Source: Flavobacteriaceae bacterium | GTDB lineage: Bacteria > Bacteroidota > Bacteroidia > Flavobacteriales > Flavobacteriaceae | DNA length: 64,000 nucleotides | Assembly (NCBI GenBank): GCA_018608625.1 | Contig: JABAZC010000071.1 | Location: forward strand, 1 to 64,000 | Direction: 5' to 3' | Shown: one piece after another, positions 1-52,379 of the stretch | Numbering within the stretch: the stretch's first letter is position 1 | Layout of the letters: every line of letters starts with the position of its first letter | Notes under the pieces: model-generated | Database searches by the model: none | The model's input: the letters and a program-made list of their open reading frames with translations, nothing else | What the model was told of the DNA's origin: nothing | Position numbers and translations under genes: made by a program

Positions 1-1969
1 CAATATTAGCAATTTTCAATTCTAAAATCCCACTTTGTTGAGTCCCCATCATATCTCCTGGGCCGCGTAGTCTAAGATCTACTTCCGCAATTTCAAACCC
101 ATCGCTAGAGTGAACCATCGTTTGCATGCGTGTTTTACTATTTTCCCCTAATTTATGACTGGTCATTAAAATACAGTAACTCTGTTCACTTCCACGTCCC
201 ACGCGTCCTCTTAACTGATGGAGTTGCGATAATCCAAAACGTTCGGCACTTTCAATAATCATGACCGATGCATTGGGTACATTCACTCCTACCTCAATTA
301 CTGTTGTGGCCACCATAATATGAGTTTCCCCTTTTACAAATCGTTGCATTTCAAATTCTTTATCTGCAGGTTTCATTTGACCGTGCACCATAGATACTTG
401 ATACTTTGGCATTGGGAAATCACGAACTATGCCTTCATAGCCATCCATTAAGTCCTTAAAATCTAAGGATTCACTTTCGTTTATTAATGGATATACAATA
501 TAAATTTGTCGTCCTTTTGCAATTTCTTCCCTAATAAAACCAATAACTTTTAGTCGATTGGTATCATAGCGATGAACAGTTTTAATTGGCTTTCTTCCTG
601 CCGGTAGCTCATCGATTACGGAAATATCTAAATCGCCATAAACAGACATTGCCAAAGTACGTGGAATCGGAGTTGCTGTCATGACTAAAATATGAGGTGG
701 AGAATCATTCTTTTTCCATAGCTTACTGCGTTGTGCGACTCCAAATCGGTGTTGTTCGTCAATAATTGCCAGGCCAAGGTTTTTAAATTTCACCTTATCC
801 TCTAGAAGTGCGTGAGTTCCCACAATAATTTGTAATTCACCAGATTCTAATTGTTCGTGAATGACGCGACGAGCAGCGATTTTACTTGATCCAGTTAATA
901 ATGCAATTTTAACTCCAATTAAATCACAAAAAGGTTTCAGTCCGTTGTAATGTTGAAATGCTAAAATTTCTGTGGGTGCCATTAAAGTCGATTGAAAATC
1001 ATTATCGATAGCAATAAACATAGACATCAAAGCTACAATCGTTTTTCCAGAACCAACATCTCCTTGTAAAAGACGATTCATTTGAGCATTACTCCCCATA
1101 TCAATTCGAATCTCTCTCAAGACTCTTTTTTGAGCATTGGTCAATTCAAAAGGAAGATGTTTATTATAAAACGTATTAAAGTAATCTCCTACGGTTTCAA
1201 AACGATAGCCTTTAATTTTAGACTTGTGAATAATATTTTTTAGAATAAGTTGAAGTTGTATGTAAAAAAGTTCTTCGAACTTTAATCGAAACTGAGACCG
1301 GCTTAATAAGTTTTTATTTTTTGGAAAATGAATATTTAAAAGCGCTTCACTTTTAGAAATTAATTTTTGATGCTCAAGAATCTCTAAAGAAAGTGATTCT
1401 TCAAAACGGCCATTTAATTGTAGAAAAAGCTGTTCCATTACTTTACAAATAACGCGGTTTGAAATCCCTCGATTAGATAACTTTTCGGTTGAAGGATATA
1501 TTGGCTGTATCGCCTTAGAGAGGCTTTTATCATAGTCCGTCTTTAGTTCTATGTCTGGATGCGGCATGCTAAACACACTATTGAACAGGTTGACTTTTCC
1601 GAAAATAACATAATCAGTATGTGTTTTTAAATGCTCCCGAATCCATTTATGCCCCTTAAACCAAACCAGTTCAATGAAGCCTGAATCATCTCTAAAAGTG
1701 GCAACCAGTCGTTTGCCTCGCTTTTGTGCAATTTCTTTAAATCCTGTAATTTGTCCAATGATTTGAACTTCCGAATTTGAAGGCTGAAGTTCTGTGGTTT
1801 TATAAAACCGAGTGCGGTCTATATATCTATTTGGAAATAAATTTATAAGATCTTGAAACGTACGAATCCCCAATTCTTTACGTAAGACTTCAGCGCGACT
1901 CGGCCCGACGCCTTTTAAATAATCAATAGGAGTTTGAAGAATGGTCGCTGTGTTGGATGAATTTTTAAT
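1..1969 (-). CDS. recG: ATP-dependent DNA helicase RecG (3' end cut by window edge)
   Basis: RecG remodels stalled replication forks and branch-migrates Holliday junctions in the cytoplasm. Read on the minus strand, the frame opens with a wedge/OB region beginning around LQTPIDYLKGVGPSRAE. It then shows the superfamily 2 helicase motifs: GDVGSGKT near residue 300, DEQHRFG, TATPIPRT, and the RVGRG motif close to the left edge. About 656 codons are present; family members are about 700, so only the last few dozen residues are missing. The start is odd. The in-frame stop at 1973-1975 is followed by no ATG, GTG or TTG before the conserved N-terminal motif; ATT codons at 1967-1969 and 1940-1942 are the only near-start codons. 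I used ATT 1967-1969. It is divergent from the PNGase F-like gene. Function is certain, the start is not. Confidence 0.95.
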   Translation of the reverse strand, partial: MKNSSNTATILQTPIDYLKGVGPSRAEVLRKELGIRTFQDLINLFPNRYIDRTRFYKTTELQPSNSEVQIIGQITGFKEIAQKRGKRLVATFRDDSGFIELVWFKGHKWIREHLKTHTDYVIFGKVNLFNSVFSMPHPDIELKTDYDKSLSKAIQPIYPSTEKLSNRGISNRVICKVMEQLFLQLNGRFEESLSLEILEHQKLISKSEALLNIHFPKNKNLLSRSQFRLKFEELFYIQLQLILKNIIHKSKIKGYRFETVGDYFNTFYNKHLPFELTNAQKRVLREIRIDMGSNAQMNRLLQGDVGSGKTIVALMSMFIAIDNDFQSTLMAPTEILAFQHYNGLKPFCDLIGVKIALLTGSSKIAARRVIHEQLESGELQIIVGTHALLEDKVKFKNLGLAIIDEQHRFGVAQRSKLWKKNDSPPHILVMTATPIPRTLAMSVYGDLDISVIDELPAGRKPIKTVHRYDTNRLKVIGFIREEIAKGRQIYIVYPLINESESLDFKDLMDGYEGIVRDFPMPKYQVSMVHGQMKPADKEFEMQRFVKGETHIMVATTVIEVGVNVPNASVMIIESAERFGLSQLHQLRGRVGRGSEQSYCILMTSHKLGENSKTRMQTMVHSSDGFEIAEVDLRLRGPGDMMGTQQSGILELKIANI

Positions 1970-2084: not shown

Positions 2085-3794
2085 ATGAAACTATTAATTA
2101 AATCTACAAATTATTTTATAATTTTTACATTCTCAATATTAATTAATTGTAGTAGTGACAACCCCACCTCACCTCCAGTAGAAGTAACCACTCCTTTAGT
2201 TTCGGTTAGTGTTGAAGCGCTTAGTTTTAATGATACCGAAACTCTAATGTTTTCAGACTCCAAAACTCTTAATTTTAGCGGTGAATATTTATCAGAAAAT
2301 TTATCAATAAACAGTGGAGTGAATTTTGAAATATCCTTAGATAATGAAAATTATGAAACTCAAATAATTATAGAACTAACAAATTCTGAAGTCAGTTCAC
2401 AGACTTTATTCGTACGCTTTGCACCTGGAGAGGACGCTATTGGTCAGACTCAAGGAACCTTAACTTTATCAAGTACTGGGGCAACTTCTCGAACGGTAAA
2501 TCTAATTGCAAACGCATTGGGAACTATTCCTTATTTGAGTATCAACTACGCTGAATTTTCGTTTACTGAAACCAGTATCGGGGCAACTACAGAATCAATC
2601 CCTCTTGAAGTAACTGCTAATAATTTATTAACATCTTTGACTATTTCTACTGAAGGTCCATTTATGATATCTCTAAACAATTCAGAATTTAGTTCTACCA
2701 TTCAGGTGGATGAACAAACTGCAAATGAGGATTTCACGTTGTATGCCCGTTTTGAACCAACTGAAATTGGTGAATCAGTAAGTAGTGTAGAATTTAATAG
2801 TGATGGCTTAGGTACTGTTTCCTTGTCCTTGAGTGGAGTTGGCATTGCGATGGTATATAATTATCAAACTTTTAACCAAACCCGTTTGGCTTATGGGGGT
2901 GGTTTTAGCCAATCTTCTATACAAACATTCTCTCTTCACGAAGACATGACAACTATTGAAACCATAAATATGTATCTACAATTAAACTGTCCTTTAGGAG
3001 GGTGTAATGCATGGGATGTTTATTCAAATATTTTAGTGAAAGACCCCTCTACAAACGAATGGTATGAAATAGGTCGTTACATCACTCCATACGGAGTTGG
3101 CACAGGACAACTAGAAAGAGGATTAGAAATTGATGTTACTGATTTCAAGTCTTTGTTAAACGGGACTGTTGAATTAAAAGCCTTTATTGAAGTATGGGGT
3201 AGCGATGGTTGGGAGTTGAGTGTAGATTTTGACTATGTTCAAGGGACACCTGATTATCAATATTATGAAATTGCTCCGATTATACAATACAACAACAACT
3301 CTTTAGGAGGTGTGATTTATGGAGAAGATGATTCTGCGTTTGATTTAACCAAAACTATTTCTCTTCCTTCTAATTCTGAAAGCTCGCATTTACGCACAAT
3401 TATTACAGGTTGGGGACATGCAACTCCAAATGATTCTGATGGTAGGCCATGTGCTGAATGGTGCCACAGAACACACCATGTTAGTATTAATAACAATCAA
3501 ACATATCAGCATTACTTAGGCCCTATCGGATGTGTCTCTAACCCTATAAACCCACAAGGGGGTAATTGGGTTCCAGACAGAGCAGGTTGGTGTCCAGGAA
3601 TGGCTGTTCCAAATCGAATTGACTTACTAGACCAAAGTTTATCGGGAAGTACATTTAGCTTCGATTATGAATTTCAACCCTGGACAAACAATCTTTTGTC
3701 AACTTCATCAAATATCCACGCCTATTATGCATTGTCTAGCTTTATCATTGTAAAAAGCAATACCCCGGTTGAAAAACCAATTGTGATGGATTAA
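2085..3794 (+). CDS. PNGase F-like surface lipoprotein (peptide-N4-(N-acetyl-beta-glucosaminyl)asparagine amidase)
   Basis: PNGase F removes N-linked glycans by hydrolysing the bond between the innermost GlcNAc and asparagine. The protein (569 aa) has a lipoprotein signal with Cys22 in the lipobox, followed by SSDN, resembling Bacteroidota surface-export signals. Two tandem beta-rich domains of about 105 residues follow (about 38-146 and 147-253, both ending in a SLSG/NLIA-type strand), probably Ig-like spacers. Residues about 257-569 match Elizabethkingia PNGase F closely as I remember it (EWYEIGR, GLEIDVTDFKSLL, GWGHA, CAEWC, DRAGWCPGMAVP, SGSTFS, AKSNTP-like end). The three catalytic acids map to Asp311 (AWD), Glu369 (FIEVW) and Glu458 (CAEW), all conserved. 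The classic enzyme is secreted and lacks the spacers; here it looks membrane-anchored. No type IX C-terminal domain is visible. It stands alone, divergent from recG and convergent with the next gene. Confidence 0.9.
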   Translation: MKLLIKSTNYFIIFTFSILINCSSDNPTSPPVEVTTPLVSVSVEALSFNDTETLMFSDSKTLNFSGEYLSENLSINSGVNFEISLDNENYETQIIIELTNSEVSSQTLFVRFAPGEDAIGQTQGTLTLSSTGATSRTVNLIANALGTIPYLSINYAEFSFTETSIGATTESIPLEVTANNLLTSLTISTEGPFMISLNNSEFSSTIQVDEQTANEDFTLYARFEPTEIGESVSSVEFNSDGLGTVSLSLSGVGIAMVYNYQTFNQTRLAYGGGFSQSSIQTFSLHEDMTTIETINMYLQLNCPLGGCNAWDVYSNILVKDPSTNEWYEIGRYITPYGVGTGQLERGLEIDVTDFKSLLNGTVELKAFIEVWGSDGWELSVDFDYVQGTPDYQYYEIAPIIQYNNNSLGGVIYGEDDSAFDLTKTISLPSNSESSHLRTIITGWGHATPNDSDGRPCAEWCHRTHHVSINNNQTYQHYLGPIGCVSNPINPQGGNWVPDRAGWCPGMAVPNRIDLLDQSLSGSTFSFDYEFQPWTNNLLSTSSNIHAYYALSSFIIVKSNTPVEKPIVMD

Positions 3795-3812: not shown

Positions 3813-4331
3813 TTATAAAACTATCAGTTTGCTCACTTCATTTTTTAAATAAGCCAAAGCAACACTACTTGGTGGGGGTTTACCTATAGATTTAGTTAAT
3901 ACGAGTTCTCTGAACTTGTCAGCGGTTTTTGTAGTATTTAAAATATCATAATTTCTAATGGATTGTATCGTAGTATTTTTTGCAGTTAAAATCACATTCC
4001 AGCAATCATTCGAAATGTAAATTTGTTGTGATAGATTATGCTCAAATTCTTGTTCTATGGTTTTAATCAATAGCTGTTGATAATCTTCTTTTTTAGTTGA
4101 AATTGGCTGAACTCTGATAAGCAAGCTAGTTAGAGTCATCCGTTCTAAAAATAAGGTCAAACGCTCGTAGGCTTGTAATTTAATAGGAATAATATCACTT
4201 TTTATAGAGTTGTTTTGATAGAAGTAATGCTTTTTATTTTGATTAATCAAATAATCTTTAAAAAACTTATAGACAATAATCAAGGCTAAAAGGGCGAAAA
4301 ACCATTTAAAATTAGTTTCTAAAAAATTCAT
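3813..4331 (-). CDS. Conserved membrane-anchored protein of unknown function
   Basis: I do not recognise a function. The protein has 172 residues with one N-terminal membrane segment (about 9-26) and a soluble, largely helical remainder. The run LQAYERLTLFLERM and the phrase QEFEHNLSQQIYIS feel like a family conserved in Flavobacteriaceae, seen here only by memory of similar proteins. There are no catalytic motifs or cysteine pairs beyond a single Cys. It is convergent with the PNGase F-like gene (18 bp apart) and divergent from the helicase gene. A good -7 element on the minus strand (4368-4375) supports its own transcription. Confidence 0.75.
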   Translation of the reverse strand: MNFLETNFKWFFALLALIIVYKFFKDYLINQNKKHYFYQNNSIKSDIIPIKLQAYERLTLFLERMTLTSLLIRVQPISTKKEDYQQLLIKTIEQEFEHNLSQQIYISNDCWNVILTAKNTTIQSIRNYDILNTTKTADKFRELVLTKSIGKPPPSSVALAYLKNEVSKLIVL

Positions 4332-7515: not shown

Positions 7516-10347
7516 ATGAGCAAGTTTGATGAATTTATTGAAGTAAAAGGAGCACGCGTACACAATTTAAAAAACATTGATGTTAATATTCCTAGAGACC
7601 AATTGGTCGTCATCACTGGGATGTCAGGAAGTGGAAAATCTTCTTTGGCATTTGACACGATTTATGCCGAAGGACAACGTCGTTATATTGAAACGTTCTC
7701 TGCCTATGCACGTCAATTTTTGGGAAGTTTAGAACGTCCTGACGTTGATAAAATTGATGGACTTTCTCCAGTCATTGCTATTGAACAAAAAACAACCAGT
7801 AAATCTCCAAGGTCTACAGTAGGAACAATTACTGAAATATATGATTTCTTAAGACTTTTATTTGCACGTGCAGCAGATGCTTACAGCTTTAATACTCGTG
7901 AGAAGATGGTGAGTTATAACGACATTCAAATAAAAGATTTAATACTTGAATCATTTAACGGAAAACGTATTTCTATTTTATCTCCTGTAATCCGTTCTAG
8001 AAAGGGGCATTACAGAGAGTTATTTGAACAGATTGCTAAGCAGGGCTTTGTAAAGGTAAGAACAGATGGTGTCATTGTTGATCTTTCAAAAGGGATGAAG
8101 CTGGACCGTTATAAGATGCATGACATAGAGATAGTTATTGACAGACTTAAAATTGACACAACAAGCGCAGCTACAAGCCGTCTTAGCGAAAGTATCAATA
8201 CAGCCATGTACCACGGCGAAAATGTACTGATAGTGATTGAAGAAGACAGTAAAGAAGTTCGTTATTTTAGTCGTAATTTAATGTGCCCTACTTCTGGTAT
8301 CTCTTATCCTAATCCAGAACCAAATAATTTTTCATTCAACTCTCCAAAAGGGGCTTGCTCCGACTGTAGTGGTATTGGTACTTTATACAAAGTCAACGCC
8401 TCTAAAATAATTCCAGACCACTCAATCTCCATAAAAAATGGAGGGCTTGCACCACAAGGGGAACAAAAAGACTCTTGGATCTTTAAACAGTTAGAACTCA
8501 TCGCGCAACGCTATAAGTTTAAACTAACAGACCCAATATCAAAAGTACCTAAAGAAGCATTAGACATTATACTGTATGGCGGAAAAGATAAGTTTTCTGT
8601 AGACAGTAAAACCTTAGGGGTCTCTCGAAATTATAATATTGACTTTGAAGGGATTGCAAATTTTATTGAAAACCAGTATAAACATTCAGACTCTACCTCT
8701 ATTAAGCGTTGGGCTAAAAGATATATGGATAAGATTAAGTGCCCTAGCTGTGAAGGTTCACGACTAAAAAAAGAATCCTTATACTTCAAAATCAACGATA
8801 AAAACATCTCAGAGCTCTCTGAAATGGATATTATAGAACTTGTGGCGTGGTTCAAAAAACTACCCACCAAGTTATCTAAAAGCCAAACCATAATATCCAA
8901 GGAAATATTGAAAGAAATCTCTACACGTTTACAATTCCTTTTAGATGTTGGCTTGGATTATTTATCCATAAGTAGAAGTTCTAAATCTCTTTCTGGAGGC
9001 GAAGCACAGCGAATACGTTTGGCGACTCAAATTGGATCACAATTAGTAGGCGTTTTATACATTCTAGATGAGCCAAGTATTGGTTTGCACCAAAGAGATA
9101 ATGAAAAACTAATCAAGTCTTTAATAGCCTTGCGAGATGTTGGAAACTCCGTCATTGTCGTTGAGCACGACAAAGATATGATTGAGCAAGCAGACCATGT
9201 GATTGACATTGGTCCGATGGCTGGAAAATATGGCGGTGAGATTATCAGTCAAGGGACGCCAAAAGATATTTTAAATAGTGGCACAATGACAGCGGACTAT
9301 TTAAGTGGCATTAGAGAAATTGAGATCCCAAAACAACGTCGAACTGGAAACGGAAATTTCTTAGAATTAAAGGGATGTACTGGAAATAATTTGAAAAATG
9401 TTTCTATTAAACTTCCATTAGCGCAAATGATTGGAGTTACTGGGGTTTCAGGAAGTGGGAAATCTACATTGATAAATGAAACACTTTATCCAATTCTAAA
9501 CAACTATTATTTCCATGGGGTCATGGAACCAAAGCCCTATAAAACAATTAAAGGATTAGATAATTTAGATAAGGTTATTGACATTAACCAATCTCCAATT
9601 GGACGTACCCCAAGAAGCAATCCAGCAACCTATACGGGGGTATTTGGAGAAATAAGAGCTTTATATGCCAAAATACCAGAGGCAATGATACGGGGCTATA
9701 AATTAGGGCGGTTTAGTTTTAATGTGGTTGGAGGGCGATGCGAAACCTGTAGAGGTGGTGGTATGAGAGTTATAGAAATGAATTTTTTACCAGATGTCTA
9801 TGTAGAATGCGAAAACTGTCAGGGAAAACGCTTTAACAGAGAAACGCTAGAAATTAGATACAAAGGGAAATCAATTAGCGATGTGCTAAATATGACGATT
9901 GAAGAGTCCGTAGATTTCTTTGAACATATTCCTAAAATATACAGGAAATTAAAAACCATTAAAGAAGTTGGATTAGGATACATCACTTTAGGGCAGCAAA
10001 GCACTACATTATCTGGAGGTGAAGCACAACGAATCAAGTTAGCATCCGAATTAAGTAAGCGAGATACCGGAAATACTATTTATATTTTGGATGAACCAAC
10101 TACGGGTTTGCATTTTGAAGACATTAGAGTGTTAATGAACGTTTTAAATAAATTAGTTGATAAAGGAAATACCGTTCTTATCATAGAACATAATTTAGAT
10201 GTTATCAAAACAGTTGATTACATAATTGACATTGGACCTGAGGGGGGGCATGGAGGTGGAAAGATTATTGCAAAAGGAACTCCAGAAGAGGTTATAAAAA
10301 ACAAGATCAGCCATACAGCTAGATTTTTAAAAAAAGAGCTAACTTAG
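7516..10347 (+). CDS. uvrA: Excinuclease ABC subunit UvrA
   Basis: UvrA is the damage-sensing ATPase of nucleotide excision repair; it loads UvrB onto lesions. At 943 residues it has family length, with two ABC modules: Walker A GMSGSGKSS (35-43) and GVSGSGKST (about 645), signatures LSGGEAQRIRLA (about 491) and LSGGEAQRIKLA (about 831), and two LDEP Walker B boxes. The C-terminal zinc finger is intact (CETC and CENC, about 741-768). The first zinc site is unusual: it reads CPTSG where most bacteria have CPxCG, although its later pair CSDC is present. I believe this variant is common in Bacteroidota. It lies between the YciO-type gene and the LOG gene. A G7 run near 10247 encodes part of a glycine-rich segment. 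Confidence 0.97.
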   Translation: MSKFDEFIEVKGARVHNLKNIDVNIPRDQLVVITGMSGSGKSSLAFDTIYAEGQRRYIETFSAYARQFLGSLERPDVDKIDGLSPVIAIEQKTTSKSPRSTVGTITEIYDFLRLLFARAADAYSFNTREKMVSYNDIQIKDLILESFNGKRISILSPVIRSRKGHYRELFEQIAKQGFVKVRTDGVIVDLSKGMKLDRYKMHDIEIVIDRLKIDTTSAATSRLSESINTAMYHGENVLIVIEEDSKEVRYFSRNLMCPTSGISYPNPEPNNFSFNSPKGACSDCSGIGTLYKVNASKIIPDHSISIKNGGLAPQGEQKDSWIFKQLELIAQRYKFKLTDPISKVPKEALDIILYGGKDKFSVDSKTLGVSRNYNIDFEGIANFIENQYKHSDSTSIKRWAKRYMDKIKCPSCEGSRLKKESLYFKINDKNISELSEMDIIELVAWFKKLPTKLSKSQTIISKEILKEISTRLQFLLDVGLDYLSISRSSKSLSGGEAQRIRLATQIGSQLVGVLYILDEPSIGLHQRDNEKLIKSLIALRDVGNSVIVVEHDKDMIEQADHVIDIGPMAGKYGGEIISQGTPKDILNSGTMTADYLSGIREIEIPKQRRTGNGNFLELKGCTGNNLKNVSIKLPLAQMIGVTGVSGSGKSTLINETLYPILNNYYFHGVMEPKPYKTIKGLDNLDKVIDINQSPIGRTPRSNPATYTGVFGEIRALYAKIPEAMIRGYKLGRFSFNVVGGRCETCRGGGMRVIEMNFLPDVYVECENCQGKRFNRETLEIRYKGKSISDVLNMTIEESVDFFEHIPKIYRKLKTIKEVGLGYITLGQQSTTLSGGEAQRIKLASELSKRDTGNTIYILDEPTTGLHFEDIRVLMNVLNKLVDKGNTVLIIEHNLDVIKTVDYIIDIGPEGGHGGGKIIAKGTPEEVIKNKISHTARFLKKELT

Positions 10348-10367
10348 TAAACACTAAAAATTAAACT

Positions 10368-11057
10368 ATGGGACCAGAAAAGAAACACAAAGGATGGAAT
10401 GAAATAAAAACAAATGACTCGTGGGCGATTTTTAAAATCATGGGAGAGTTCGTAAATGGATTTGAAAAAATGAGTAAAATTGGCCCATGTGTCTCTATTT
10501 TTGGATCTGCTAGGACCAAGTCAGAAGACAACTATTACAAACTATCTACAGAGGTAGCGACTGCAATTGTAAAAGCGGGATATGGCGTTATTACTGGTGG
10601 TGGACCTGGAATAATGGAAGCAGGAAATAAAGGAGCACATTTGGCGGGAGGCACATCTGTAGGATTAAATATTGAATTGCCTTTTGAACAACATAATAAC
10701 CCTTACATTGATTCTGATAAAAGTATAGACTTCGACTATTTTTTTGTAAGAAAAGTAATGTTTGTCAAGTATTCTCAAGGGATTGTAGTAATGCCTGGGG
10801 GGTTTGGAACCTTAGACGAACTATTTGAAGCTATTACATTAATTCAAACTCACAAAATTGAAAAATTCCCTGTTATATTAGTTGGTAAAACATTTTGGAG
10901 TGGTTTATTAGAATGGATAAAAGAAACACTATTGGAGCAATTTGAAACAATTAGTCCAAAAGATCTTGACTTAATTCACCTGGTAGACACATCAGATGAA
11001 GTGATTGATATTCTTGATGCTTTTTATAAAGAATACCAATTAAGTCCAAATTTCTAA
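10368..11057 (+). CDS. LOG-family Rossmann protein (putative nucleotide 5'-monophosphate phosphoribohydrolase)
   Basis: LOG proteins release the base from (cytokinin) riboside 5'-monophosphates or from ordinary nucleotides. The diagnostic motifs are present: SIFGSAR, GGGPGIMEAGNKGA (about 79-92) and PGGFGTLDELFE (about 143-154), the last carrying the substrate-binding and catalytic residues of the family. Length (229 aa) suits the longer bacterial form, with an extra N-terminal arm. It follows uvrA by 20 bp, suggesting co-transcription. Substrate cannot be told from sequence. Confidence 0.9.
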   Translation: MGPEKKHKGWNEIKTNDSWAIFKIMGEFVNGFEKMSKIGPCVSIFGSARTKSEDNYYKLSTEVATAIVKAGYGVITGGGPGIMEAGNKGAHLAGGTSVGLNIELPFEQHNNPYIDSDKSIDFDYFFVRKVMFVKYSQGIVVMPGGFGTLDELFEAITLIQTHKIEKFPVILVGKTFWSGLLEWIKETLLEQFETISPKDLDLIHLVDTSDEVIDILDAFYKEYQLSPNF

Positions 11058-11124
11058 TATTTATTAATTTTTTAAAATCAATTAAATACTCACTGAATAA
11101 TCAAGCCCTTTAGCCTCAATTTTT

Positions 11125-13956
11125 TTGAAAAATTATATCTTATATTTTATATTTATGTTCTGTTTATTCACTGTTAGCAGTCAAAATATAATAGAAATTC
11201 ATGGCGTATTAAATACCGAGACCAATACCCTCTTGGTAAAACAAAAAATTACATATTACAATAATTCTAATTCCTCATTGAGTGAATTATATTTTAATGA
11301 TTGGAGTTCTAGTTTCAGCAGCCCAGACTCGCCTCTATCTCAAAGGTTTGTTGAAGAATATAATGGAAGTTTACTAAACCCCAAACAAAAACACAGAGGC
11401 TTTACTTCGATTCAATCTGTGAAAAACGAACAAAAAACAAACCTTTCCTATTCATACCTTGAAAACCAATCTGATTTATTTAAAATCCAGCTTGACACTA
11501 CTTTATTACCCTATAAATCTACAAGCATATTTATTGAATATACAATTCAAATTCAAAGCGATCGATTTACCGGATACGGAGTAACTAATAAAAAAGACTA
11601 TTTATTAAACTACTGGTATATTACTCCTGCCGTATATGAAAACTCGGATTGGAAACTATATAGCAATAAAAACCTAGACGATTATTACACCCCTAGATCA
11701 GAACTAAAACTCACTCTAGAAATCCCTAAAGACTACAATGCAACTACAGAACTAAATCTAAAAAATATAAGTAATAAGTTAAATTCACAAGAATTTTCCT
11801 TCGAAGGAAAAGGTCGAACAGATTCAAGACTTAATATTTCCAAAAAACCATTCTTTAAATTTAAGACAGGAAACTTAAACATTATAAGCAATAGCTTGAA
11901 GGCAGATGAATCTATGAGTCATCAAATCAATTCATTTGATAAAGTAGTGGCTTTTTTAAATGATAAGTTAGGAGAATATCCCCATGAAAATTTAATGGTT
12001 TCCAAATTAGATTTAAAGAAAAACCCAATTTATGGTTTAAATATACTCCCTGGTATTCTAAGTCCATATTCTAAAGATTTCGAATATGAGTTAACCATTG
12101 CTAAAAACTTAATTAGGATTTACTTGGACCAGTATTTAAACATGAATCCAAGGGAAGAACATTGGCTTAAATCAGGGCTTGGAAACGCATTACTAATGAA
12201 ATATGTAGATACGTATCATAAAGACCAAATGATGCTTGGTAAGTTTTCTAACGTATGGGGTTTAAAAAGTTATAATTTGGCAAAATTAAAATATAACGAA
12301 CAATACCAACTTGCCTACATAAACATTGTTAGGAATGGAAGAGACCAGGCCTTAATTTTACATAAAGACGAATTATTAAAATTCAATGCAAACTTAGCAT
12401 CAAGATATAAAGCTGCTAAGGGATTAATTTTTCTAGAAGATTTCATTGGAGACTCAAAAATTGATGACTGGATTAAAGAATTTGTGGTTAAGAATAAAGA
12501 CAAACTTAAAACTACAAAAGATTTCGAGTTGTTTATTAGTGCAAAAAGCAGCAAAGATCTAAGTTGGTTTTTTGACTCGTTTATTACAAACACTCAACAG
12601 ATAGATTATAAAATATCAAGGATACGGAGCGATAAAGACTCTATATACTTTACTGTTAAAAATATGAAACGGGGGCAAACTCCAGTCTCATTATTTACGA
12701 TAAAAGAGGACACGGTACTTACCAAAAGTTGGTTAACCGGAATTGGAAAAGAGAAAGACTTTGTTGTTCCAAATAACTCCGCTGACAAATTGGTTTTAAA
12801 CTACGATCAGAAAGTTCCAGAATTTAATATAAAAAATAACTGGAAGTCGGTTAGTGGTACTGATTTTTTCAACAGACCTTTCCAGTTTAGACTTTTAAAA
12901 GACTATACCTCTCCATATAACAATCAACTTTACTTATTGCCGACTATAGAATATCGAAATATTTATGATGGGATTAATTTGGGGCTAAATATTAATAACA
13001 GTGGAATCGTAGACAAACCATTTATTTTTGGACTAGCTCCAAACTATAGTTTAAATTCAAAATCCATAACAGGATTCACAAAATTTGAACATAACACCTA
13101 CTTTCAAGACCAAGATTTGTATAATATTAAATTTGGTGTCTCCGTTTCTCGCTCAAGTTTTGCGGCAAATTCATTTGTAAATAAGGTACTACCCTACCTA
13201 TCTATCAATTTTAAGGATGCTACTGACTTAAGATCTAATAAATTTAAAAGTCTAATATTTAGATATGTAGGGATAGATAAGGATTATGTAGAAGAAGTTG
13301 AAAATGAAATAGCTCTGCCATCATATGGAGTATTCAATGTAAGATATCTAAATTCAAACCATGGCTTTAAAAAACACTACAGTTGGTTTGTTGATTCACA
13401 ATTTTCTAATGAATTTGGAAAACTATCTTTTAACTATGAATTTAGAAAACGTACCAACAAAAAAAGTTTCTATAACCTACGACTATTTGCGGGAACCTTT
13501 TTGTATTCAAAAATCAAATCAAATCAAACTAATTTTGACTTTGCTCTTGATAGACCAACAAACTATTTATTCGATTACAACTATTTAGGACAATTTGAAT
13601 CCTCAGGAATATTTAGTCAACAAATTATAATTGCAGAGGGCGGATTCAAATCCAAACTAGACAAAGCATCGGCCAACCAATGGATGACAACTCTAAACGC
13701 TAGCGCTTCACTATGGCGCTATATCCAAGCTTATGGAGATATTGGATATCTTAAAAACAAAGGAGTAAACGCTGAATTTGTATATGACACTGGAATACGA
13801 TTAAACTTTATTACAAATTATTTTGAAATTTATTTTCCTTTTTATTCAAATTTAGGATGGGAAATTGCTGCCCCTCAATACAGCCAAAAAATCAGATTTG
13901 TTTTTACTGCTGACCCTATTGCTCTTTTTGGTCTATTCAAAAGGAAATGGTATTAA
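11125..13956 (+). CDS. M1 aminopeptidase-like outer-membrane protein lacking the HExxH motif
   Basis: A 943-aa exported protein: signal peptide (about 1-19, ending VSSQ), an M1-type N-terminal beta domain (LNTETNTLLVKQKITYYNNS), a helical peptidase-like middle, and a C-terminal third (about 580-943) of alternating strands ending KRKWY that looks like an outer-membrane beta-barrel. In active M1 enzymes the middle holds HExxH and, about 18 residues on, the helper Glu. Here the corresponding helix reads ELTIAKNLIRIYLDQY followed by REEHWLKSGLGNALLMKYV, so the WLxEG-like segment survives but both metal histidines are absent. I recall related Flavobacteriaceae proteins with the same loss. Start is TTG. 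It is probably a non-catalytic or altered member; its role is unknown. Confidence 0.75.
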   Translation: MKNYILYFIFMFCLFTVSSQNIIEIHGVLNTETNTLLVKQKITYYNNSNSSLSELYFNDWSSSFSSPDSPLSQRFVEEYNGSLLNPKQKHRGFTSIQSVKNEQKTNLSYSYLENQSDLFKIQLDTTLLPYKSTSIFIEYTIQIQSDRFTGYGVTNKKDYLLNYWYITPAVYENSDWKLYSNKNLDDYYTPRSELKLTLEIPKDYNATTELNLKNISNKLNSQEFSFEGKGRTDSRLNISKKPFFKFKTGNLNIISNSLKADESMSHQINSFDKVVAFLNDKLGEYPHENLMVSKLDLKKNPIYGLNILPGILSPYSKDFEYELTIAKNLIRIYLDQYLNMNPREEHWLKSGLGNALLMKYVDTYHKDQMMLGKFSNVWGLKSYNLAKLKYNEQYQLAYINIVRNGRDQALILHKDELLKFNANLASRYKAAKGLIFLEDFIGDSKIDDWIKEFVVKNKDKLKTTKDFELFISAKSSKDLSWFFDSFITNTQQIDYKISRIRSDKDSIYFTVKNMKRGQTPVSLFTIKEDTVLTKSWLTGIGKEKDFVVPNNSADKLVLNYDQKVPEFNIKNNWKSVSGTDFFNRPFQFRLLKDYTSPYNNQLYLLPTIEYRNIYDGINLGLNINNSGIVDKPFIFGLAPNYSLNSKSITGFTKFEHNTYFQDQDLYNIKFGVSVSRSSFAANSFVNKVLPYLSINFKDATDLRSNKFKSLIFRYVGIDKDYVEEVENEIALPSYGVFNVRYLNSNHGFKKHYSWFVDSQFSNEFGKLSFNYEFRKRTNKKSFYNLRLFAGTFLYSKIKSNQTNFDFALDRPTNYLFDYNYLGQFESSGIFSQQIIIAEGGFKSKLDKASANQWMTTLNASASLWRYIQAYGDIGYLKNKGVNAEFVYDTGIRLNFITNYFEIYFPFYSNLGWEIAAPQYSQKIRFVFTADPIALFGLFKRKWY

Positions 13957-22249: not shown

Positions 22250-23268
22250 TATTGTAAATTTATTTGTAATCCAATAAAGCTAGTATTTGCTGCGGATGAA
22301 TATCGCGCATGCGTATAGCTAAATCTAATATTATTAAATTTTATACCAATTCCTAAAGACAAGCCTGAAAAATTTCGTTGTTCTAATATTTTAAGTTCGG
22401 CCGCCCTTCTAAAACTATATCCTAATCTAAGGTTAAATCCTTTTTCCGGAAACAATTCTACTCCAACAATAGTGTGCCGAAACAAATCACTAATAAAGCT
22501 TACTTTTTCTTCTGTTTGATTTCCATTCAAATCGGTAGTACTTCTTGCCGGATTAGGAGACACTATGGGCCACTTTTGCAAATTCTCAAAAGTAAGGTGC
22601 CATCGAATCGGTACGTTTTCAAGAGTTTGGGAGAATCCAAGATCAATCTCAAAGGGCAACGATTCCTTCATACCTGCGTAGGTTGATAACTGAGTTCCAA
22701 AATTACGAACAACTAAGGCAGCATTAAAATCTAAATACTCATATATATAAATGAACCCTATATCGGTCGCAATTCCTAACGAACTATATTGCTCTAATTT
22801 GGAGGTAATGAATTTAATATTGGTACCAACATAAAAATCAGAATACCCTATTTGTGTTGCATAACCAACGGAGAGAGCAGCTTCATTACCGGTGAAAGCA
22901 CCTGTACTAACCCCATTTTCATCATACCCATCAAAACTTCCATAGTTAACGTAAGTCATCCCTACATGAAAAGTCTGAGTTCTCCGATCAACAGTGTAAG
23001 CATAAGCAGCTGTTCCATAACGAATATCCCCTAAGTAACTTGAGTAATTGATTGCTAATTGATTGTCCATATCAACGTTTATGGTTGCAGGGTTATACAA
23101 CCCTTGGGTGACGTCATAATCGACATTAGTAAGCACTTTGCCTCCAAGGGCTGCTTGTCTAGGAGACGACATTAAGTTTAAAAACTGATAAGTCGATTCA
23201 CCACCAAGTTGAGCTTGAACTTGAGCAATGCCAGAAAAAACGATAATAAACGTGACAACTAATCTCAT
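22249..23268 (-). CDS. porQ: Type IX secretion system protein PorQ
   Basis: PorQ is an outer-membrane component of the Bacteroidota type IX secretion system, associated with PorV/PorU-type surface attachment. The protein has a signal peptide (about 1-19, ending VQAQ), then LGGESTYQFLNLMSSPRQAALGGK, a hallmark start shared by PorV/PorQ-like FadL-type barrels, and alternating amphipathic strands to the C-terminus. Length 339 fits. The order lon-porQ-cmk is, as I recall, common in Flavobacteriaceae. It indicates that the organism has type IX secretion, although no cargo with a clear C-terminal signal is seen in this window. Confidence 0.9.
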   Translation of the reverse strand: MRLVVTFIIVFSGIAQVQAQLGGESTYQFLNLMSSPRQAALGGKVLTNVDYDVTQGLYNPATINVDMDNQLAINYSSYLGDIRYGTAAYAYTVDRRTQTFHVGMTYVNYGSFDGYDENGVSTGAFTGNEAALSVGYATQIGYSDFYVGTNIKFITSKLEQYSSLGIATDIGFIYIYEYLDFNAALVVRNFGTQLSTYAGMKESLPFEIDLGFSQTLENVPIRWHLTFENLQKWPIVSPNPARSTTDLNGNQTEEKVSFISDLFRHTIVGVELFPEKGFNLRLGYSFRRAAELKILEQRNFSGLSLGIGIKFNNIRFSYTHARYSSAANTSFIGLQINLQ

Positions 23269-49488: not shown

Positions 49489-50691
49489 ATGGCTATTAAA
49501 CCGGCAAATAAGATACAAGACTTACAATATTTTGGAGAATTTGGAGGGGTCAACCCGTCAATATCAGATGCGTCTACTTTCACTTTTAAGTCCGCAAAAA
49601 CAATGTTTGATACGTTTGAAGGCAATGCAGATGGCTGTTATTTATATGCCAGGCACACCACCCCATCTAGCATGTACCTAGGAGAAGCGCTTGCTGCAAT
49701 GGAAGGGACAGAAACAGCAAATGTTTCTGCTTCTGGAATGGGGTCAATTACTTCAGTTCTAATGCAATTATGTGCTGCTAATGATCACGTTGTTTCTAGC
49801 CGTACAATTTACGGAGGCACCTATGCCTTTCTGAAAAACTTTGCCCCTAGACTGAATATCTATACAAGCTTTGTTGACATCACAAATCTAAAAACTGTAG
49901 AAGCTGCAATTACAACTAAAACTACCGTGCTTTACTGTGAATCTGTAAGCAATCCGTTGCTAGAAGTAGCAGACATCCCTGGCTTGGCAAGACTTGCTAA
50001 AAAATACAACTTAAAACTTGTTGTAGACAACACATTTTCACCACTGTCAATATCTCCGAAAGAGCTTGGAGCCGATATTGTAATACATAGTTTGACCAAA
50101 TTCATTAATGGTTCTAGCGATACAGTTGGAGGTGTTGTTTGTGGAACACAAGAAATGATAGACAGCTTAAAAAGTGTGATTGATGGGGCTGCCATGTTAT
50201 TTGGTGCTACTATGGATAGTCTTCGTGCTTCTTCCATCCTAAAAAACCTTAGAACTCTTCACATACGAATCAAGCAACATAGCTTAAATGCGATGTACTT
50301 GGCTCAGAAATTTGAAAAAGACGGAGTGAAAACAGTCTATCCAGGTTTAAAATCACATCCCTCTCATACAATATTCAAAAGTATGATGAATACTGAATAT
50401 GGATTTGGAGGCATGATGACGATCGATACGGGTAGCTTGGAAAAAGCGAATGCCTTAATGGAGTTAATGCAAAAAGAAAACTTAGGATACTTAGCTGTAA
50501 GCTTAGGGTTTTACAAAACCTTATTTAGCGCACCGGGGAGTTCTACTTCATCTGAGATCCCAGAAGAAGAACAAAAAGAAATGGGACTAACTGATGGGCT
50601 TATTCGGTTTTCAATTGGATTAGACAATGATATTGAACGCACTTACAATATGATGAAGGCCTGCATGAAAACTATTGGAGTGATTTCTTAA
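49489..50691 (+). CDS. Methionine gamma-lyase-like PLP enzyme
   Basis: A 400-residue member of the Cys/Met-metabolism PLP family: YLYARHTTPS loop, SGMGSITSV, VVDNTFSPLSISP, PLP lysine Lys204 in HSLTKFINGSSD, and a C-terminal GLTDGLIRFSIGLD. The arrangement with an adjacent, divergent Lrp-type regulator points to catabolism of methionine or a related amino acid (methionine gamma-lyase), but cystathionine-active relatives cannot be excluded. Quite different from the trans-sulfuration enzyme at 34872. Its last 4 bases overlap the convergent YdjM-like gene. Confidence 0.85.
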   Translation: MAIKPANKIQDLQYFGEFGGVNPSISDASTFTFKSAKTMFDTFEGNADGCYLYARHTTPSSMYLGEALAAMEGTETANVSASGMGSITSVLMQLCAANDHVVSSRTIYGGTYAFLKNFAPRLNIYTSFVDITNLKTVEAAITTKTTVLYCESVSNPLLEVADIPGLARLAKKYNLKLVVDNTFSPLSISPKELGADIVIHSLTKFINGSSDTVGGVVCGTQEMIDSLKSVIDGAAMLFGATMDSLRASSILKNLRTLHIRIKQHSLNAMYLAQKFEKDGVKTVYPGLKSHPSHTIFKSMMNTEYGFGGMMTIDTGSLEKANALMELMQKENLGYLAVSLGFYKTLFSAPGSSTSSEIPEEEQKEMGLTDGLIRFSIGLDNDIERTYNMMKACMKTIGVIS

Positions 50692-51710: not shown

Positions 51711-51896
51711 AATGAGGCTGTAAAAATACAATTATTGGAGCAATAGAATCTAAAAAAAACAATCAATTAATGATTTAGTTCTGTCTCAGAAAAATCATAA
51801 ATAAAACCAGTCTAAATGAAAATTAAATACTACGTAATAGTAGTCTATCTTGACAACTTGCGTTGCTTCTTTAAAAATTGTATTATTACACATTAT

Positions 51897-52379
51897 ATGA
51901 AAGCGGCCACTGTTATACAACTTAAAAAAGAATTAGAAACTTTAAATGAAGACCATTTAAAGCAATTATGTTTACGACTTGCCCGTTTCAAAATTGAGAA
52001 CAAGGAGCTACTCACATATCTATTATTTGAATCTGAAGATGAAGCCTTTTATATTGAAGGAATAAAAGAACAGACGGATCAATTATTTGAAGAAATAAAT
52101 ACTAAAAGTTATTTTTACATCAAAAAAAGCGTTCGTAAGATTTTGCGTTTGTTGAAAAAATATGCACGCTATTCAAATAGCAAAGAAACTGAAGTTGAAC
52201 TCCTAATCTATTATTGTTACAAACTTCAAACCCTAAAGCCTTCCATAAATAACAACTTGACACTCACTAATATTTATCTTAAACAAATCGAAAATATAGA
52301 AAAGAAGATCATTAAACTACATGAAGATTTACAATTTGATTTCCGAGAAAAACTTGAACAATTGAACTTAAAACATTAA
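51897..52379 (+). CDS. Unknown conserved helical protein upstream of ppgK
   Basis: I do not recognise it. From ATG 51897 (frame open back to 51816, but the extra residues look unlike protein) it has 160 residues, lysine- and leucine-rich and nearly all helical: LKKELETLNEDHLKQLCLRLARFKIENKELLTYLLF, then a second helical block around KSVRKILRLLKKYARYSNS. No membrane segment, no cysteine cluster, no nucleotide motif. The spacing of 10 bp to the polyphosphate glucokinase gene suggests co-transcription. It feels like a Flavobacteriaceae-restricted family. Confidence 0.75.
   Translation: MKAATVIQLKKELETLNEDHLKQLCLRLARFKIENKELLTYLLFESEDEAFYIEGIKEQTDQLFEEINTKSYFYIKKSVRKILRLLKKYARYSNSKETEVELLIYYCYKLQTLKPSINNNLTLTNIYLKQIENIEKKIIKLHEDLQFDFREKLEQLNLKH

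Follow-up and report, generated by a model that had tools for sequence, protein, structure and literature searches.

PNGase F of Elizabethkingia meningoseptica (EMTypeI; solved as 1pgs, 1pnf and 3pms) is a standard tool of glycobiology and is familiar in secreted form; the literature that we found says little of its setting in nature. We take Asp60, Glu118 and Glu206 to be its catalytic acids. Glu118 is also named in PMC9522356, where it is said to block core alpha-1,3-fucose in PNGase F (papers are cited here by accession, each from a portion of its text). According to the same source, PNGase F-II (4r4x, 4r4z) and a Bacteroides group 2 PNGase (7zgn) have Gly at this position and a bowl-like N-terminal accessory domain, and the Bacteroides group 1 enzyme BF0811 (3ks7) has Asp and a type I signal sequence. 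Accessory modules are likewise present on PNGaseDo, PNGaseL and others described in PMC12381499, which states that prokaryotic PNGases are typically found at the cell surface, that the enzyme could be turned outward by its accessory modules and that the PNGase genes it treats are mostly orphans; PNGaseDo and PNGaseL carry T9SS signals. A lipid-anchored Ig stalk is not described in the portion of that paper available to us, and the word 'lipoprotein' is absent from its main text.

Two systems of another enzyme class offer precedents. GpdG of Capnocytophaga canimorsus is an N-glycan-releasing surface lipoprotein whose Cys-to-Gly form cannot deglycosylate (PMC3128124), and BT_3987 (DUF1735 and GH18) carries an Ig-like domain belonging to a class for which a membrane-bound spacer role is proposed (PMC11216935). 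Both are endo-beta-N-acetylglucosaminidases encoded inside PULs, unlike the gene studied here. Their catalytic fold (GH18) is unrelated to that of PNGase F. N-glycan-releasing surface lipoproteins are already known and Ig spacers already proposed; our literature searches, which covered open-licence papers, found no stalked lipid-anchored PNGase F, and a variable-length Ig stalk on a putatively lipid-anchored PNGase F appears to be new.

The gene studied here lies in a stretch of 64,000 nucleotides (the window, meaning the whole stretch analysed) from a probably marine flavobacterium (Table 1). By sequence, its product is beyond doubt a PNGase F relative. It matched 1pnf at E=6.8e-121, with residues 258-568 on chain 7-313 (phmmer against PDB chains), it is 56-57% identical to solved PNGase F, and two Pfam profiles scored above cut-off: N-glycanase_C (PF09113) at 2.7e-13 and 50.3 bits (cut-off 25), and N-glycanase_N (PF09112) at 9.4e-5 and 22.7 bits (cut-off 22.4). 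The initial annotation of this DNA had proposed a PNGase F homologue across the C-terminal half with three catalytic acids kept, and both proposals held: counted along the printed phmmer alignment, chain positions 60, 118 and 206 of 1pnf pair with D311, E369 and E458. The check that it had suggested, structure prediction and comparison with the PNGase F structure, came out in the same sense. An AlphaFold model of the protein (pLDDT 91.3, pTM 0.73) superposed on 1pgs with Z 45.6 and an rmsd of 1.1 Å across 310 residues, in agreement with the family fold of two side-by-side eight-stranded beta-sheets. PNGase F-II and 7zgn (Z 26.6-27.4) and BF0811 (Z 27.1, with 18% identity in the structural alignment) share the superfamily fold.

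Table 1. Coordinates of the PNGase F-like gene, of the features of its product and of its flanking genes in the window.
Feature	Position	Strand	Basis
recG, preceding gene (in other genera as well); cut off by the window edge	2..1873	-	Pfam; tblastn
PNGase F-like lipoprotein gene	2085..3794	+	ATG start, 569 aa; phmmer + Pfam
Putative lipoprotein signal peptide, residues 1-21	2085..2147	+	sequence + alignment of 64 proteins
Lipobox Cys22, expected lipid-bearing +1 residue (ILIN/CSSDN)	2148..2150	+	invariant, 64/64 aligned
SSDNP at +2 to +6, one acid; weak resemblance to the lipoprotein export signal	2151..2165	+	alignment; PMC5080379 (in part)
Module 1, ASH/PapD-like Ig domain, residues 40-143	2202..2513	+	module profile; structure prediction
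Module 2, ASH/PapD-like Ig domain, residues 153-253	2541..2843	+	module profile; structure prediction; weak Pfam match
PNGase F catalytic region, residues 256-569	2850..3791	+	phmmer; structure match to 1pgs
Asp311 = PNGase F Asp60	3015..3017	+	alignments
Val312, replaces PNGase F Arg61	3018..3020	+	alignment of 64 proteins
Glu369 = PNGase F Glu118 (type I residue)	3189..3191	+	alignments; PMC9522356 (in part)
Glu458 = PNGase F Glu206	3456..3458	+	alignments
DUF7935 gene, downstream neighbour	3813..4331	-	Pfam; tblastn

The window protein thus has the catalytic region, acids and six Cys of PNGase F, and differs from it by two added N-terminal Ig modules and by Val for Arg61. It differs from the other enzymes in having Ig modules where PNGase F-II and 7zgn have the bowl-like domain, Glu where these have Gly and BF0811 has Asp, and a lipobox where BF0811 has a type I signal sequence and PNGaseDo and PNGaseL have T9SS signals. 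We think it reasonably probable that it is a lipid-anchored, stalked type I PNGase of the cell surface, and infer its lipidation, exposure, activity, specificity and substrate, and the spacer role of its modules, from the comparisons that follow.

Relatives were taken as the best 80 of 524 loci found across named genomes, making 81 proteins with that of the window; the contigs of some loci end close to the gene. An alignment of 64 rows leaves out 17 of the 81: two truncated proteins (L073, L137), three with an unsure start (L105, L117, L121), one with a broken frame (L150), one devoid of a lipobox (L145) and ten by choice, mostly near kept rows (L092, L099, L107, L112, L126, L129, L135, L140, L147, L149). 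Asp311 and Glu458 are invariant across these 64 full-length proteins, of which the window protein is one. Glu369 occurs in 63, with Asp in the remaining one; six Cys matching Cys51, 56, 204, 208, 231 and 252 of PNGase F are present throughout. Against two same-genus orthologues, dN/dS of the window gene was 0.12 and 0.08 in the enzyme part and 0.30 and 0.29 in the N-terminal part, which indicates purifying selection. This constraint and the 1pnf match rule out a pseudogene or a chance ORF.

An orthologue at 50% identity or more was found in 31 of 397 same-family genomes, with a clear gap beneath (the next match is at 40%). Small genomes of flavobacteria (1.1-2 Mb) are among those that carry an orthologue, some having GH92 genes and others none. 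Other PF09113 lineages are common in the 397 genomes, with open frames of about 400, 565, 640, 850 and 1150 aa.

Since Glu118 is kept in the window protein, type I specificity is expected, position 118 being occupied by Glu or Asp, and not Gly, in type I enzymes; Glu369 rules out a type II enzyme such as PNGase F-II. The neighbouring position is less constant. PMC12381499 describes an aromatic-Asp-positive/aromatic motif, to which Arg61 belongs, that contacts chitobiose. PNGase F has W59-D60-R61 and the window protein W310-D311-V312, outside that pattern. As the same source terms the motif broadly conserved in the superfamily, we take Val312 as a difference and not as exclusion from the superfamily. 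The column holds Val in 35, Arg in 23 and Met in 6 of the 64 aligned proteins, and the 41 relatives with Val or Met, window protein included, are candidates for differing specificities.

The initial annotation placed two tandem beta domains of about 105 residues before the enzyme, and these were recovered as modules 1 and 2. The two are homologous (25% identity between them), and each is predicted as a well-modelled beta-sandwich. In structural comparison of the predicted model, module 2 matched 2ys4 (HYDIN PapD-like) with Z 9.9 and an rmsd of 2.7 over 96 residues; the two modules together matched CEP192 SPD-2 (9fh8 and 7ptb, Z 11.2 and 10.6) at an rmsd of about 12, and ciliary central-pair proteins also matched across both at high rmsd (Foldseek included). 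PapD and pilus chaperones came next at Z 8-9, and the fold class is therefore a general one. The Pfam profile Cep192_D4 found module 2 at E=0.0003 and 21.4 bits, below its cut-off of 35.5; it was above cut-off in two relatives (L088, 49.1; L108, 46.5) and not in three others (L077, L081, L087). Since pTM is 0.73 for the whole model and 0.58 for the modules alone, the model does not fix the inter-domain angle or the reach of the stalk.

The signal peptide and lipobox were assigned from sequence and alignment. The lipoprotein signal named in the initial annotation is borne out by Cys22, which is invariant in the 64 aligned proteins, bare or stalked. It can be followed in 80 of the 81 proteins (window and best 80 of 524 loci): the 64, the ten left out by choice, L073, L137 and L150, and the three with an unsure start, L105, L117 and L121. 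The Cys of L105 precedes the first ATG. In L117 (Lacinutrix jangbogonensis), upstream of 9662, an in-frame stop separates the lipobox-bearing first module from the rest, a recent pseudogene or an assembly error; as the Cys and first module lie upstream of this stop, L117 was scored as having one module. The lipid anchor, which the initial annotation saw as setting this protein apart, is by these alignments not distinctive, because module-free relatives bear the lipobox Cys too.

The sole relative devoid of a lipobox among the 81 is L145 of Splendidivirga corallicola (9926-13309, 1128 aa), in which the enzyme is accompanied by F5/8 (two stretches), PKD (three), GEVED and T9SS sorting domains. 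It alone among the 81 runs far past the catalytic region, and its T9SS sorting domain makes it probably extracellular too. T9SS secretion of the window protein is ruled out, its sequence stopping with the catalytic region.

The residues after the Cys bear on which way the anchored protein would face. PMC5080379 describes a surface export signal of Flavobacterium johnsoniae and Capnocytophaga lipoproteins, a polar residue followed by acids just past the Cys, with consensus SDDFE. The acid-rich stretches of the relatives resemble this consensus: positions +2 to +6 hold two or three acids in 40 of the 64 aligned proteins (drawn from the window and best 80 of 524 loci), one in 23 and none in 1. 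The window protein has one, compared with 2-4 in five SusD proteins of its own genome, and its surface exposure is for this reason likely but not secure. That single acid would suit a lipoprotein facing the periplasm, where it would deglycosylate small imported glycopeptides and its modules would position the enzyme inside the envelope, and two Bacteroides PNGases with type I signal sequences are proposed to be periplasmic (PMC9522356). We consider this unlikely, given the acids of the 40 relatives and the T9SS domain of the one non-lipoprotein relative; PMC9522356 itself allows for an error in its signal prediction.

The stalk was counted with a profile built from the two modules of the window protein. 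Among the 81 proteins, 23 have no module, 39 have one, 18 have two and one has three, counts that are not a random sample since the 80 named loci are the best 80 of 524. Stalks are therefore common among relatives by this profile (58 of 81 with at least one module), and the stalk does not single out the window protein any more than the anchor does. Close PNGase F relatives in Bacteroidota would thus be lipid-anchored on a stalk of varying length. In a quick 92-row tree built from the catalytic region (the window, 79 of the best 80 of 524 loci, L150 being dropped, and 12 chosen orthologues), module number changes 18 times on the best topology; high-support branches alone force fewer changes, 8 for one module, 6 for two and 3 for none. 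Bizionia saleffrena has two modules and its sister B. paragorgiae one. The three-module Kordia protein looks like the outcome of a duplication, its modules 2 and 3 each being similar (53 and 58%) to module 2 of a second Kordia.

The modules also change faster than the enzyme. In 16 two-module proteins the modules are on average 34-39% identical to those of the window protein, and the enzyme 63%, and the invariant module columns are Phe, Ser, Pro, Gly and Leu. Module residues of the relatives, including those of the best 80 of 524 loci, contain one Trp in 7,829, compared with 2.9 per 100 in the enzyme. A variable number, few Trp and fast divergence are what a spacer would look like, and they favour the spacer role proposed in the initial annotation. 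ASH/PapD-like folds often bind proteins. It is also proposed that accessory modules of some other PNGases bind substrate (PMC12381499), and the modules here could likewise bind glycan or protein, for substrate capture or docking, instead of being mere spacers. This we hold to be quite unlikely: the near-absence of Trp and the fast divergence argue against a carbohydrate-binding role, and the labile module number and the nature of the invariant columns also count against binding.

For a stalked PNGase of the cell surface, the following course is envisaged. Signal peptidase II would cleave the precursor, Cys22 would be lipidated and the protein, placed in the outer membrane, would most likely be flipped to the cell surface. 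The two Ig modules would form a stalk that raises the catalytic region clear of the surface layer. There the enzyme would hydrolyse the GlcNAc-Asn amide of N-glycoproteins (those of algae, for example), freeing the whole glycan and converting Asn to Asp. The freed glycan could feed the unlinked GH92 genes of the genome, and the bared peptide would become accessible to proteases. Homology, acids, predicted fold, lipobox, modules, constraint and the variable stalk of relatives support this reading, as do the four GH92 genes and the SusC-SusD-GH92 locus of the genome and the precedents of GpdG, the GH18 Ig-like spacer and the cell-surface statement of PMC12381499. It is weakened by the one-acid export signal, the lack of GH92 enrichment (below), Val at the Arg61 position, the unfixed domain angle, the periplasmic site predicted for two Bacteroides PNGases of the wider family (PMC9522356) and the smaller number of module changes forced on well-supported branches than on the best tree. 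The arrangement makes testable whether N-glycans are stripped at the bacterial surface, whether stalk length governs the range of substrates, and whether it is the glycan or the bared protein that is sought. A diffusible deglycosylase, freed by proteolysis of the linker or carried in outer-membrane vesicles, would agree with the secreted archetype, the T9SS tail of one relative and the pLDDT below 50 of residues 19-32, which contain the linker start, but a conserved anchor and stalk would be of little use in a released protein and we think such shedding very unlikely.

The anchored state may extend to the archetype. The precursor of PNGase F itself may have a lipobox too. In searches of 395 + 88 genomes, the best match to the archetype sequence was L152 at 69% identity, and this nearest match among those found bears the lipobox Cys. 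Tentatively, and with rather more doubt than conviction, we suggest that the whole PNGase F clade, archetype included, was ancestrally lipid-anchored, the Ig modules tuning stand-off so that the enzyme would be bare beside SusCD and stalked where alone. On that view the archetype's soluble form would derive from a surface lipoprotein by shedding. This suggestion is supported by the lipobox Cys in bare and stalked forms, L152 included, and by the distribution of transporter genes: a SusC-SusD pair or GH92 lies within the flanks (up to 10 kb) of 8 of 28 bare genes and of 1 among 64 with a stalk (Fisher p=2e-4; best 80 of 524 loci included), a contrast that loses its support once phylogeny is allowed for, with only 3 independent pairs on well-supported branches. 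SusC-like genes without SusD were not scored as linkage, and such matches occur in both classes. That bare enzymes sit beside a transporter and stalked ones alone is only suggestive, and we do not treat a link between stalk and PUL as established. At L201 (6740-19489), a bare PNGase F lipoprotein gene lies among four GH92 genes.

Around the window gene itself, no glycosidase or SusC/D family match was found in 51 of 52 ORFs (Pfam, E up to 1e-5, and up to 1 for the gene itself), the ORF at 49932-50237, antisense inside another, being left out of the scan. The SusC/SusD or glycosidase genes that mark an N-glycan PUL thus do not adjoin the gene in the window, where the initial annotation's statement that partner genes are lacking is accurate. 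It does not extend to the genome: in the source assembly (1.9 Mb, 91% complete) GH92 is matched four times and the SusD family PF14322 five times, always on contigs other than that of the window, and there is one SusC-SusD-DUF4959/DUF5000-DUF4998/DUF5000-GH92 locus (L200, contig C17), a possible alpha-mannan or high-mannose glycan locus.

Genome counts, in which phylogeny is ignored, do not tie the orthologue to GH92. GH92 occurs in 16 of 31 genomes with the orthologue compared with 188 of 366 others (p=1), so that N-glycan catabolism as the common purpose of these genes is not favoured. Genomes with other PF09113 proteins above 150 bits have GH92 in 34 of 37 cases (p=5e-8). By class, judged by the length in front of the enzyme, GH92 is present in 6 of the 7 genomes with a bare enzyme and in 10 of the 24 with a stalked one (p=0.08).

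The position of the gene bears on its origin. In 15 of 18 same-genus genomes recG and the DUF7935 gene are adjacent with no gene between them (96-165 bases between tblastn matches), and the PNGase F-like gene stands between them in the other 3. Among 78 orderable loci of the best 80 of 524, 15 from several genera (one being a same-genus genome) have recG as the ORF immediately preceding the orthologue, and one further locus has it one ORF off. As recG adjoins the orthologue in several genera, loss in the 15 same-genus genomes is likelier than insertion, and the window gene would be at a long-standing site of the family, the gene having probably been lost from much of the genus. Recent gain by the window genome is disfavoured on the same ground, gain at the same site being the form it could still take. 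In 11 loci of other genera (among the best 80 of 524), M1 peptidase, patatin and DUF7935 genes follow the orthologue; co-operation with this M1 peptidase is a weak proposition, the locus being housekeeping-like.

Three of the 51 scanned ORFs of the window lacked any Pfam match. The ORFs at 22252-23268 (339 aa) and 51816-52376 (187 aa) had none at 1e-5. A 943-aa protein encoded at 11125-13953, likewise without a Pfam match, appears by eye to be of M1 peptidase type; its metal site looks degenerate and its C-terminal part resembles a barrel.
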